Origin: Kitasatospora cineracea
Lineage (GTDB): Bacteria > Actinomycetota > Actinomycetes > Streptomycetales > Streptomycetaceae
Assembly (NCBI RefSeq): GCF_003751605.1
Contig: NZ_RJVJ01000003.1
Coordinates: 186,001 to 250,000 of the forward strand
Direction: 5' to 3'
DNA: 64,000 nt
Positions 37,554 to 40,564 of this stretch are shown in pieces. Both the position numbers and the translations under genes were made by a program. The notes below the pieces were generated by a model. It ran no database searches. It saw only the letters and a program-made list of their open reading frames with translations, and had not been told where the DNA came from. Position 1 is the stretch's first letter. Each line of letters begins with the position of its first letter.

Positions 37554-38516
37554 ATGCAGGCGATCCGGATCGAGGAGCACGGCGGTCCCGAGGTGATGCG
37601 CTGGACCGAACTGCCCGACCCCGTGCCCGGACCGGGGGAGGTGCTGGTGCGGTCGGCCGCGGTCGGGGTCAACTACATGGACGTCGGCGCGCGGGCCCAG
37701 GGCGGTCCGGGCTGGGCGGCGCCGGCGGTGCTGGGGGCCGAGGGGGCGGGGTACGTGACCGCTCTCGGCGCGGGCGTCGAGGAGCTCGCGGTCGGCGACC
37801 GGGTGGCCTGGTTCTACCACCCGGGCAGCTACGCCGAGTTGCTGGCCGTCCCGGTCGCCGCGCTGGTCAAGGTGCCTGACGGGGTGTCGGACGAGGTCGC
37901 GGGCGGCCTGCTGATGCAGGGCCTGACCGCCAACCACCTGACCACCGAGACGTACCCCGTCGCCCCGGGCAGCACCGCCGTGGTGCACGCGGCGGCCGGC
38001 GGGGTGGGCCAGTTGCTGACCCAGCTGGTGAAGGCCCGCGGCGGCAGCGTGATCGGGCTGGTCTCCCGGGCGGAGAAGGCCGCGGTGGCGGAGCGGGCCG
38101 GGGCCGACCACGTCCTGGTCCACTCCGGCGGCGGTTTCGAGCAGCAGGTCCGCGAACTCACCGGCGGACGCGGGGCCGACGTGGTCTACGACGGCGGCGG
38201 CGCCGACACCTTCGCCTCCTCCCAGCTGTCGCTGCGCCCGCACGGCGTGCACGCCTACTACGGGCCCTTCATGGGCGTCCCGACCCTGCGGCCCACCGAC
38301 CTGCCCAACAGCATCCTGCTCAGCTACCCGGTCGTGCACCACCACGTCGCCACCCGCGCGGACCTGGTGCGGCGCACCGGCGAACTGTTCGACCTGGTCC
38401 TGGACGGGCGGCTCACCCAGCGGATCACCGGCCGCTACCCCCTCGCCGACGCCGCCCGGGCGCACGCCGACCTCGAATCCCGCCGCACCACCGGCAAACT
38501 GATCCTGCTGCCCTGA
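37554..38516 (+). CDS. Zinc-less NADPH:quinone oxidoreductase (MDR family)
   Basis: 320 aa. The GroES-like N-terminal domain (GVNYMDVGARA) lacks catalytic zinc ligands, and the Rossmann domain carries VVHAAAGGVGQLLTQLVKARG. It reduces quinones with NADPH. AGGAAGGCGG precedes the ATG. Originally followed closely by a gene whose ribosome site and possible start (38531-38544) are now cut off by an IS110 element; the tetR on the other side is the likely former neighbour. Confidence 0.92.
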   Translation: MQAIRIEEHGGPEVMRWTELPDPVPGPGEVLVRSAAVGVNYMDVGARAQGGPGWAAPAVLGAEGAGYVTALGAGVEELAVGDRVAWFYHPGSYAELLAVPVAALVKVPDGVSDEVAGGLLMQGLTANHLTTETYPVAPGSTAVVHAAAGGVGQLLTQLVKARGGSVIGLVSRAEKAAVAERAGADHVLVHSGGGFEQQVRELTGGRGADVVYDGGGADTFASSQLSLRPHGVHAYYGPFMGVPTLRPTDLPNSILLSYPVVHHHVATRADLVRRTGELFDLVLDGRLTQRITGRYPLADAARAHADLESRRTTGKLILLP

Positions 38517-38550
38517 CCGCCGCCCCCCCGGAGGAGTCTCAATGACCGAG

Positions 38551-39750
38551 TCAAGCTGCCTGCGCGTCCAGAACGGGGGTGAAGATCCGATTGTCGCGCA
38601 GGAGCGCCCACAGGACGCTGACCCGGCGGCGGGCGAGGGCGATGATCGCCTGGACATGCTTGCAGCCCTCGGCGCGCTTCTTGAGGTAGAAGTCCCGGTT
38701 CGGCCCGTCCCGCATGATGCTGGTCTGCGCGGACATGTAGAACACCCGTCGCAGGCGGCGACTGTAGCGTTTCGGCCGGTGCATGTTGCCGGTGCGGCGA
38801 CCGGAATCGCGGGGGACGGGCACCAGCCCGGCCGCCGAGGCGAGGTGGCCGGCGTCCGCGTAGGCGGCCAGGTCCCCGGCGGCGACGACGAGCTCGGCGC
38901 CGAGTATCGGCCCGATGCCGGGCAGGGACTCGATGATCTCGGCCTGCGGGTGGGCACGGAAGGTGTCGCGGATCTGCTTGTCGATCCGCTTCAACCGGTC
39001 GTCCAGGGCCAGGATCTGTGCGGCGAGGTCGGCGACGATCGCGGCGGCGACGTCCTCGCCGGGCAGCACGGTGCGCTGGGCCTCGGCGGCCTCCAGCGCG
39101 GTCGCGGCGACCGCGTCGGCGCCGCGCACGCTCCGGTTGGCGAGCCAGGCCGTCAGCCGGGCCCGGCCCCGGCGGCGCAGGGCGGCCGGGGTCTGGTAGC
39201 CGGTCAGCAGGACCAGGGCGCCCTTGTGCGCGGAGTAGTCGAAGGCCCGTTCCAGGGCGGGGAAGATGCCGGTGAGCACGTCGCGGAGCCGGTTGATCAT
39301 CCGCACGCGGTCGGCGACCAGGTCCGATCGGTGCGCAGTCAGCAGTGCGAGGTCCGCCGCGAGCTGGGCGGGCACCTCGATCGCGGCGAAGTCCCATCGC
39401 TGACGGGAGGTTTCGGCGATGACGTAGGCGTCGCGGGCGTCGGTCTTCGCCTCGCCCCGGTAGGCGCCGGCCATGCGGTTGACGGTGCGTCCGGGCACGT
39501 AGACGGCCTGCTGGCCGTGGGCGGCGAGCAGGGCCAGCAGCAGTGCCGAGGCGGTGCCGGAGATGTCCACCGCCCAGTGGACCTGCTCGGCCAGCTCCAG
39601 GATTTCGCCGAGCGCGGTCAGGATCGCCGTCTCGTCGTTGACGATCTTCTTCGACCACAGCGTTGTGCCGGCCTCGTCGACCACGGCCGCCCAGTGATGG
39701 CCCTTGCCGGCGTCAACACCCGCCCAAGCACGGGCACTTCGCTCTCCCAC
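38551..39750 (-). CDS. IS110-family transposase (DEDD recombinase)
   Basis: 399 aa from GTG 39750 with GAGGAGG 7 nt upstream. The N-terminal RuvC-like DEDD domain starts GVDAGKGHHWAAV and includes TDARDAYVIAE; the C-terminal Tnp20 domain has ESLPGIGPILGAELV and ASAAGLVPVPRDSGRRTGNMHRPKR, where the Ser before AAGL is the expected catalytic serine. Length and order are intact, so the enzyme looks functional. It would be guided by a bridge RNA from the element's left end. Confidence 0.93.
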   Translation of the reverse strand: MGERSARAWAGVDAGKGHHWAAVVDEAGTTLWSKKIVNDETAILTALGEILELAEQVHWAVDISGTASALLLALLAAHGQQAVYVPGRTVNRMAGAYRGEAKTDARDAYVIAETSRQRWDFAAIEVPAQLAADLALLTAHRSDLVADRVRMINRLRDVLTGIFPALERAFDYSAHKGALVLLTGYQTPAALRRRGRARLTAWLANRSVRGADAVAATALEAAEAQRTVLPGEDVAAAIVADLAAQILALDDRLKRIDKQIRDTFRAHPQAEIIESLPGIGPILGAELVVAAGDLAAYADAGHLASAAGLVPVPRDSGRRTGNMHRPKRYSRRLRRVFYMSAQTSIMRDGPNRDFYLKKRAEGCKHVQAIIALARRRVSVLWALLRDNRIFTPVLDAQAA

Positions 39751-39806
39751 TCGCCCCTCCTCGATCCCGCCTGCATTCCATCGGCCCGAGGAACACCCCG
39801 CCGTCG

Positions 39807-39958
39807 TCTCCGTAAACAGCGACCGCACACAGCGCGCACATCTCAATCAGCAGCCAGGGCACCCCGAAGAGCCGGACGGCCACTCCTCGCAAGCCACTGA
39901 AGGCAGAGAACCGTTAGCCACATCCGGCCCTCCCGGGCCGACCAACACCTTACGGAGA
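39807..39958 (-). ncRNA. Candidate bridge RNA in the left end of the IS110 element
   Basis: The 210 nt between the transposase start and the tetR boundary are non-coding. A perfect 9-bp inverted repeat, TCTCCGTAA (39807-39815) and TTACGGAGA (39950-39958), would close an RNA of about 150 nt; inside it CGGCCC TCCC GGGCCG (39925-39940) forms a hairpin, followed by less GC-rich single-stranded stretches. Size, strand and place match the bridge RNAs of the IS110 group. The stem is seen; the identity as guide RNA is inference. Confidence 0.5.
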
Positions 39959-39961
39959 ACC

Positions 39962-40564
39962 GTGCCGCTGACCCGCAAGGGCGCCGCCACCCGGCAGCGC
40001 ATCGTCGAGGGCACCGCCGAACAGATCCGCGAAGACGGCGTGTTCGCGGTCCGCCTCGAGGACGTGATGGCCCGCACCGCGACCAGCAAGAGCCAGCTCT
40101 TCCACTACTTCCCCGGCGGGAAGGACGACCTGCTGCTCGCCGTCGCCCGGCACGAGGCGCACCGGGTGCTGGCGGACCAGCAGCCCGAACTCGGCGCCCT
40201 CACCGACTGGGACGCCTGGCAGCAGTGGCGCGACAAGGTCCTCGCCCGCTACCGCGCCCAGGGCGCCAACTGCCCCCTGCACACCGCCCTCGCCCAACTC
40301 GGCGGCGCCACCGACGCCACCCGGGCGGTGGCCTGCGAACTGCTCGACCAGTGGCAGCGCCAACTCGCCGCCGGCATCCGCCACCTGCAGGCCGACGGCG
40401 CGACCGCCCCGCACCTGGACGCCGACCGAGAGGCCGCCGCGCTGCTCGCCGGGATCCAGGGCGGCGTGCTGATCCTGATGACCAGCGGCTCCGCCACCCA
40501 CCTGGAAGCCGCCCTGGACACCGGCCTCGCCCGCCTGCGCGGAACGGTCGGCACCGGTGCGTGA
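39962..40564 (+). CDS. TetR/AcrR family regulator, start region abutted by IS110
   Basis: 200 aa from GTG 39962. The N-terminal helix-turn-helix (RKGAATRQRIVEGTAEQIREDGVFAVRLEDVMARTATSKSQLFHYFPGGKDDLL) and the C-terminal domain with NCPLHTALAQLGG are typical of TetR regulators that control adjacent oxidoreductases. The start context (TTACGGAGAACC before GTG) may come from the insertion sequence. Before insertion the gene probably lay about 25 bp downstream of the quinone oxidoreductase stop. Confidence 0.88.
   Translation: MPLTRKGAATRQRIVEGTAEQIREDGVFAVRLEDVMARTATSKSQLFHYFPGGKDDLLLAVARHEAHRVLADQQPELGALTDWDAWQQWRDKVLARYRAQGANCPLHTALAQLGGATDATRAVACELLDQWQRQLAAGIRHLQADGATAPHLDADREAAALLAGIQGGVLILMTSGSATHLEAALDTGLARLRGTVGTGA

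Follow-up and report, generated by a model that had tools for sequence, protein, structure and literature searches.

What does an IS110-group insertion sequence (IS) encode in its long non-coding end, and why should the strand opposite its transposase gene stay free of stop codons when the element lies inside the translation start of a host gene? These questions are raised by an element of ∼1.42 kb in Kitasatospora cineracea, found in a 64,000-nucleotide stretch (assembly GCF_003751605.1, contig NZ_RJVJ01000003.1, positions 186,001 to 250,000) that is referred to here as the window and to which all coordinates refer. A first-pass annotation of this DNA had proposed a bridge RNA upstream of the transposase gene. 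Four guides, their covariation and a conserved structure back an RNA of this size and place, and we conclude that the 5′ non-coding region of the element very probably encodes a bridge RNA on the minus strand (probability about 0.9). Sequence comparison, from which the guides, target, structure and covariation are all read, also indicates that guide class in this family is coupled with the avoidance of antisense stop codons.

Guides and structure of the bridge RNA

The features that define the element and its predicted RNA are as follows.

38537..39955, minus strand: IS110-group insertion sequence, ∼1.42 kb; limits common to three near-identical genome copies and to empty sites in relatives
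38551..39750, minus strand: IS110 transposase; GTG start at 39750, picked by eye
39783..39939, minus strand: predicted bridge RNA core (closing stem, target stem-loop, donor stem-loop), from the consensus fold of 35 non-coding regions (NCRs)
39906..39914, minus strand: left target guide (LTG), ACGGUUCUC; all 9 bases match the left flank, with covariation among 45 distinct LTGs
39883..39890, minus strand: right target guide (RTG), GCGAGGAG; complementary to CTCCTC in the right flank, with covariation among 33 distinct RTGs
39841..39847, minus strand: left donor guide (LDG), AUUGAGA (TCTCAAT on the plus strand); equals the right end CATTGAGA, nearly constant in relatives
39807..39815, minus strand: right donor guide (RDG), UUACGGAGA; complement of the left end TCTCCGTAA, varying with it
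39950..39958, minus strand: right donor (RD), the terminus of the left end (LE), with the core CT/TC
38537..38544, minus strand: left donor, the terminus of the right end (RE), CATTGAGA; on the plus strand it gives the ATG of the antisense frame

The transposase is on the minus strand, so that the bridge RNA strand is also minus and the region upstream of the gene is the 5′ (left) end in transposase orientation. Position 38537, previously taken for the left junction, is the right end.

RNAalifold, run on 35 chosen NCRs, places the closing stem at 39934–39939 with 39783–39788, the LTG and RTG in a target stem-loop and the LDG and RDG in a donor stem-loop. The conserved structure holds two internal loops with the target loop first, and the order and strand of the guides are those described for IS621. 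Double (compensatory) changes occur at 11 of the 41 pairs of the consensus, and these covariation counts carry more weight than the 98.9% of cells that are paired, as RNAalifold picked the fold on the same alignment. None of 500 shuffles reached any of five measures, and sliding the partners by 1–3 columns reduced pairing to 38–54%. The LTG, RTG and RDG covary with the target or donor sequences to which they are complementary; the LDG is nearly constant.

The short strings singled out in the first-pass annotation are all present, namely TCTCCGTAA at 39807–39815, TTACGGAGA at 39950–39958, and TCTCAAT at 39841–39847 and 38537–38543, the last occurring only twice in the window with both strands counted. 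The first two had been read as a 9-bp closing stem of the RNA. Their pairing is perfect and improbable by chance, since the specific 9-mer match to the left end appeared once when the NCR (39751–39949) was dinucleotide-shuffled 5000 times; any 9-bp inverted repeat with arms at least 60 nt apart appeared in 34 of 1500, and the TCTCAAT match in 51 of 5000. The pairing nevertheless falls outside the consensus fold, one arm being the element end and the other lying in the donor loop, the location of the donor guide in IS621, and RD and RDG vary together among relatives. An intramolecular stem is thus highly improbable, and we read the complementarity as that of guide to donor (RDG:RD). TCTCAAT, suggested earlier as a guide-to-target match, instead represents the left donor guide (ATTGAGA), whose match is to the right end of the element itself, CATTGAGA. 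The GGCCC/GGGCC pair is real, but the conserved fold places its arms in the closing stem and at the base of the target stem. The target guides, which had escaped that annotation, match the insertion site.

Guides and flanks covary among relatives

When the flanks of the element are joined over their shared CTC they predict CACGGTTCTCCTCC, and the host strand then reads GGAGGAGAACCGTG, a Shine-Dalgarno sequence followed by the GTG start, at 39962, of a TetR-family gene. The same string is found uninterrupted in 4 of the 11 same-genus loci that carry the gene without an insertion (L087, L088, L090 and L091; loci are numbered with L throughout). Two more differ from it by one or two changes (L089, GGAGGAGAACAGTG; L093, CGAGGAGAACCCGTG), and the other five have different strings ahead of the same start. 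Both further copies of the element in the genome also lie before GTG starts. Genome-wide, 8 target 14-mers occur at no more than one mismatch, none of them perfect, compared with 1 for the reversed pattern.

Guides and flanks were compared at 80 of 147 stretches from species genomes encoding a relative, together with the three own copies; 79 of these 83 loci gave a left end and 4 had no LE parse. Among 73 usable loci there are 45 distinct LTGs, which match their own left flanks at a mean of 7.02 of 9 positions (8.04 with G-U pairs), against 4.67 for shuffled flanks, and for 35 of the 45 no other flank scores higher than their own; none of 5000 shuffles scored as high. The 33 distinct RTGs (62 usable loci) behave likewise, with a mean of 6.42 of 8 against 4.24 and again 0 of 5000. 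The RDG tracks the left end (TCCGTAA/TTACGGA, TCCCTAA/TTAGGGA, TCCTTAA/TTAAGGA), and 76 of 79 loci match at 7 or 8 of 8 positions.

Where at least 400 nt of flank was available (73 loci), a start codon opening an open reading frame (ORF) of at least 60 codons lies 3–16 nt past the core in 55; it is at 7, 8 or 9 nt in 54 of the 55 and is ATG in 50. A Shine-Dalgarno-like string stands ahead of the split in 61 of 74 gene-start loci and in 3 of 16 others, counts in which two rows were moved by inspection and near-copies are included. Gene-start insertions often split operons, a long codirectional ORF ending no more than 120 nt upstream in 31/74 gene-start loci and 2/16 others. In annotated plasmid records, for example beside IS116 and IS2112, an opposite-strand gene begins at the left end. 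Most of the other loci are located at sites of a different kind, for example CCAAAGCNGCTC or CAGGCGATCTC, for which their guides are programmed.

Several observations count against a bridge RNA with gene-start guides. The Rfam scan of the window at the gathering threshold gave no match, and the single-sequence fold of the region is unremarkable on both the minus (z −1.59) and the plus strand (z −1.82), so that the structure rests on the alignment. The RTG in the window pairs with its own flank over six contiguous bases only. Misfits to the RDG are seen in L022, whose donor loop is deleted, and in L055 and L065 (6 of 8), and the right ends of L026 and L047 differ from the LDG. Lastly, 59% of 284 control ATGs in GC-rich flanks also open an ORF of at least 60 codons, and because of this the gene-start argument is carried by the fixed distance and the Shine-Dalgarno sequence.

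The left end of L022 (Amycolatopsis marina) has an NCR of only 164 nt, lacking the donor-binding loop, beside an intact transposase, and this element is perhaps immobile or helped in trans. Three separate lineages outside the gene-start class have guides for the same kind of site, CCAAANCNGCTC (L044/L052/L112/L150; L046/L057/L115/L118–L120; L117). A distant IS110 group (∼51–55% identity; L167–L169, L174, L186, L187, L189–L191, L197–L199) has LTGs of the TCAGGCGGC type and flanks that frequently read GCCGCCTGA on the host strand, possibly a stop-codon programme.

Stop avoidance on the antisense strand

The antisense frame and the two Shine-Dalgarno sequences at the element ends are located as follows.

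38542..39900, plus strand: 'hed-like' antisense frame, open over 452 codons, aligned codon for codon with the transposase and spanning its whole gene
38530..38536, plus strand: host Shine-Dalgarno GGAGGAG, cut off from its own gene and now preceding the antisense frame; empty sites read GGAGGAGAACCGTG
39954..39957, plus strand: GGAG re-created by the left end before the displaced host start codon; a putative Shine-Dalgarno judged by its sequence

On the host strand the right end reads SD-TCTCA-ATG (SD, Shine-Dalgarno), and this ATG opens the antisense frame. As in the IS900-type arrangement, a long ORF opposite the transposase (38542–39900) thus begins at the end that meets the host Shine-Dalgarno. 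In 54 of the 64 loci with a parsed RE the frame is open for at least 390 codons.

Stops in this frame correspond to TTA, CTA and TCA codons in the transposase frame, and they were counted in a main set in which 130 of 187 parsed loci passed thresholds of 60% identity and 330 codons and yielded 103 distinct transposases. Of these, 96 could be classed by flank; the 7 unclassed comprise 6 without and 1 with antisense stops. No antisense stop occurs in 70 of 71 gene-start elements, and 24 of 25 others carry one to seven. Two rows are misclassed by the automatic procedure: L106 was called gene-start through a chance GTG, although its guide is not start-like, and has 2 antisense stops, and L045/L104 was called 'other' since the ORF behind its ATG has 29 codons, and has none. 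The automatic classes underlie the counts just given, the codon rates and the class changes on the tree; classes after inspection, in which only these two rows were moved, underlie the Shine-Dalgarno and operon counts, silent divergence, and the exchange and four-fold-column tests. The pattern was first seen in 64 loci, and the distinct sequences found later (L098 onwards, counted by hand) repeat it, 20 of 21 gene-start elements being without stops and 7 of 7 others with them.

Codon usage in the same genes serves as a control. In gene-start elements TCA makes up 1 of 913 TCN and CTA 1 of 2794 CTN codons, as against 5.0% for CCA, 3.8% for ACA, 6.4% for GCA and 2.0% for GTA within their boxes; in other-site elements TCA reaches 10.7% and CCA 10.1%. 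If the A-ending rates of the sister codon boxes applied, gene-start elements would have 1.48 antisense stops per gene, and 0.03 are seen, compared with 2.15 expected and 3.16 seen in the others. The two other antisense frames hold 10–13 stops per gene in both classes.

Plasmid elements agree with this picture. Of 14 fetched, 12 could be classed, and the 11 gene-start elements, which include IS116, IS2112-type copies and further Streptomyces and Kitasatospora elements, are all without antisense stops; they are partly dependent, four being near-copies of one Rhodococcus IS2112-type element and L211/L213 sharing the flanks of L100/L079. The single plasmid element aimed elsewhere, Mycolicibacterium L205, has five stops, and the two unclassable ones have none (L204) and two (L215). 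In L207 and L208, copies on Rhodococcus and Streptomyces plasmids, the transposase is frameshifted and the codon-aligned antisense frame is still stop-free.

For the distant set (below 60% identity), left ends came from a best LTG-flank match finder used only there, and the automatic class is unreliable; 7 of 10 rows called gene-start lack antisense stops (L134, L177 and L179 have 4, 3 and 1), many 'other' rows also lack them, and no statistics were drawn.

Of 76 gene-start loci, 63 have an antisense frame that stops short of the host start codon by 12 to 191 nt; in the misclassed L106 the distance is 954 nt. The frame runs beyond the host start in 5 of the 76, and 7 loci, representing six different elements, show an in-frame fusion with the host gene (L026, L034, L055, L076, L081, L101 and L153); in L034 and L153 neither partner meets a stop before the end of the available stretch.

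Independence of the coupling

On the protein tree, to which the antisense-stop trait is silent, the class changes 10 times, at least 6 of them forced by well-supported branches, and the antisense trait also changes 10 times. Per codon column, 2 gains of antisense stops fall on 7.30 branch units of gene-start lineages and 56 on 3.38 units of the others, at whose rate ∼121 gains would be expected on the gene-start branches; with the two misclassed rows moved, the gains are 0 and 58. Six independent pairs can be formed on supported branches, and in these the traits agree in 5.8 on average.

The strength of the coupling is reduced by a number of points. The association of stops with class has a Fisher p of 2.4e-20 in a test that takes related sequences as independent, and the sign test on independent pairs is modest (median p 0.03, range 0.03–0.22). 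The direction of change and the gain counts hinge on a midpoint root with a gene-start root state. G+C content at third codon positions (GC3) also differs, being 0.897 in gene-start elements and 0.839 in others, and because of this the classes differ in expected antisense stops (1.48 and 2.15), although by far less than in those seen (0.03 and 3.16).

What keeps the antisense frame open

We propose that the first internal loop (LTG/RTG) is programmed for the Shine-Dalgarno/GTG start and the second (LDG/RDG) for the ends of the element itself once joined. Guided by both loops, the recombinase would join the circular element to the site, swapping strands at the CT/TC core, as we infer from IS621. 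Antisense insertion leaves the host Shine-Dalgarno beside the ATG of the right end, and the host start codon gains GGAG from the left end. The frame opened by this ATG is kept stop-free in relatives programmed for gene starts, stops being present in relatives programmed elsewhere. Selection seems to keep it open as a translatable passage across an element inside a translation start. The reason may be an anti-polarity effect, or 'ribosome corridor', in which the captured Shine-Dalgarno would load ribosomes on the stop-free frame, translation and transcription would cross the element, and the downstream host gene would stay expressed; the product would be irrelevant, and the frame would decay at each reprogramming to sites where host expression is already lost. 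We give this explanation an even chance. Four parts of the account as a whole are inferences, namely that the RNA is transcribed, that recombination takes place, that the antisense frame is translated and that the change is one of loss following reprogramming.

The frame might instead encode a useful protein, hed, made only after capture of a host Shine-Dalgarno and promoter and lost in elements aimed elsewhere; the title of a 1997 paper on IS900 suggests as much. A protein would account equally well for stop avoidance and for its absence elsewhere, and a hed ORF was named for IS900 in the passages of PMC8141618 that deal with it. Silent divergence is also lower in gene-start pairs (0.36–0.39) than in others (0.48–0.49) at 11–17% amino-acid difference, but the gap shrinks past 17% and is reversed in the only bin of closer sequences that contains control pairs (n=9), and base composition may account for part of it (G+C at four-fold sites 0.89 compared with 0.83). 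Gene-start elements show no preference for exchanges that are silent in hed as well (Gln CAG/CAA, Pro CCG/CCT, Ser TCG/TCT). Of 104 conserved four-fold columns, 1 comes close to fixation in gene-start elements and 3 in others, and the mean entropy of the silent base is 1.08 bits against 1.26 in the control class, so that these columns are nearly as free. The antisense products have no Pfam or NCBIfam match up to E 0.1, and AlphaFold2 predicts no fold for 32 hed sequences, with a mean predicted local distance difference test score (pLDDT) of 32 and no residue at 50 or above; transposases from 30 of the same 32 loci reach 58.7, with 132/399 residues at 70 or above, a partial but ordered prediction. 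No amino-acid constraint was detected on the antisense product. We therefore reject hed as a conserved protein and retain it as a rival, unlikely but the most serious of those considered.

Base composition offers another account, in which the frame is open merely through GC-rich codon usage or the rarity of TTA in streptomycetes. GC3 is indeed higher in gene-start elements (0.90 compared with 0.84), and long mechanical antisense ORFs are common in the window, but TCA and CTA are nearly missing from genes in which CCA, GCA and GTA are common, and the stop-rich frames of both classes and the TCA usage of the other class (above) contradict it. Rhodococcus copies (four near-copies pooled) make the same point, with GCA at 34/239 yet TCA at 0/60, CTA at 0/104 and TTA at 0/66. 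Contradicted by the control class, this account was rejected as the least probable of all. A further suggestion, that bridge RNAs double as antisense regulators of the displaced gene and of the antisense frame, follows from geometry, the LTG ACGGUUCUC being complementary to GAGAACCGU at the host start and the LDG AUUGAGA to UCUCAAU at the hed ATG; such complementarity is a necessary consequence of guiding, and we regard a regulatory role as improbable.

The element and its host genes

The transposase has the two domains of a DEDD recombinase with a Transposase_20 domain (Pfam PF01548, E 3e-47; PF02371, E 2e-20) and matches NCBIfam NF033542, 'IS110 family RNA-guided transposase' (E 6e-75); its PDB relatives are chains of the IS621 and ISCro4 transposases. 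The genome holds three near-identical copies of the element (99–100% protein identity) and two distant relatives, of which L004 (G000:C1:5859499-5860659) encodes a 36% identical IS110 transposase and L005 a degenerate one.

Alignment of the three copies fixes the ends, which in transposase orientation read CACGGT[T/C]CTC followed by CGTAAGG... at one junction and ...GGTCATTGAGACTC followed by CTC at the other; they are uncertain by 1–2 bases because CTC is common to both. For the core dinucleotide CT and TC fit the window equally, and TC stands at both junctions in the parsed relatives. Non-coding DNA amounts to ∼205 nt on the 5′ side (LE) and ∼14 nt on the 3′ side (RE), and this long LE upstream of the transposase with a short RE is the arrangement of the IS110 group. 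Membership of the IS1111 group, in which the non-coding region and guide RNA lie downstream of the transposase, was considered and rejected, the RE being only ∼14 nt. No long terminal inverted repeats were seen by eye, and there is no target duplication, the junctions of copies and empty sites showing only the shared CTC.

The host genes on either side are listed here.

39962..40564, plus strand: displaced host gene, TetR-family regulator with a GTG start; from Pfam, with the same start in uninterrupted relatives
37554..38516, plus strand: upstream host gene of zinc-binding dehydrogenase type, codirectional with the TetR gene; from Pfam

The dehydrogenase-type gene stops 20 nt ahead of the insertion, which splits the operon between this gene and the TetR gene. 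The element has inserted between the Shine-Dalgarno and the start codon, antisense to the host gene, as in IS900-type insertions.

Comparison with known systems

In the IS110-group element IS621, as described in the parts of Durrant et al. 2024 (PMC11208160) drawn on here, the bridge RNA comes from the 5′ non-coding end with its target loop before its donor loop, left guides pair with the bottom strand and right guides with the top strand, and the guides span the core. The place of the RNA, the loop order, the guide strands and the core-spanning guides are the same here, whereas the closing stem uniting both stem-loops, the translation start as target and the antisense frame coupled to the target programme differ from that description. 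The main text of PMC11208160 contains none of the terms 'start codon', 'ribosome', 'IS900', 'hed' and 'Shine-Dalgarno'; in that of PMC11187229 'hed' and 'Shine-Dalgarno' do not occur and 'start codon' appears in one methods sentence only. The ISEc21 seekRNA, also of the IS110 group, is described in passages of PMC11187229 as having its target inside IS3-family transposase genes; it shares the upstream NCR RNA with target matches in IS110 order and differs in that its target is not a translation start.

For IS900 of Mycobacterium avium subsp. paratuberculosis, passages of PMC8141618 describe targeting of translation starts at the motif CATGNNNNNNTCTCCTT and a complementary-strand ORF, hed, that spans the element without its own ribosome-binding site. 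The layout of start codon, spacer and CTCC and the ORF opposite the transposase are alike in the two elements, by description and not by sequence; the guide RNA and the family-wide comparison given here are absent from those passages. IS116 (Streptomyces clavuligerus) and IS2112 (Rhodococcus), names taken from the annotation of plasmid records, have transposases 66% and 76% identical, a gene-start flank and no antisense stops, but differ in their target-guide sequences and lie on separate branches of the family.

Bridge RNAs (PMC11208160, PMC11187229) and the start targeting and hed frame of IS900 (PMC8141618) are thus already known from the parts of these papers cited. The coupling of guide class with the antisense frame was described by no paper among the full-text matches listed, in a search whose coverage excludes most subscription journals. 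The present analysis links RNA-guided IS110 transposition, described in 2024, with the older puzzle of the IS900 hed frame (1997), the two having been known apart, and it adds a clade of bridge RNAs whose predicted guides point at translation starts. In this family the guide programme has changed about ten times, a natural series in which a companion change can be seen in the same DNA, and the family also provides a case of an overlapping frame that is seemingly kept for the passage of ribosomes and not for its product.
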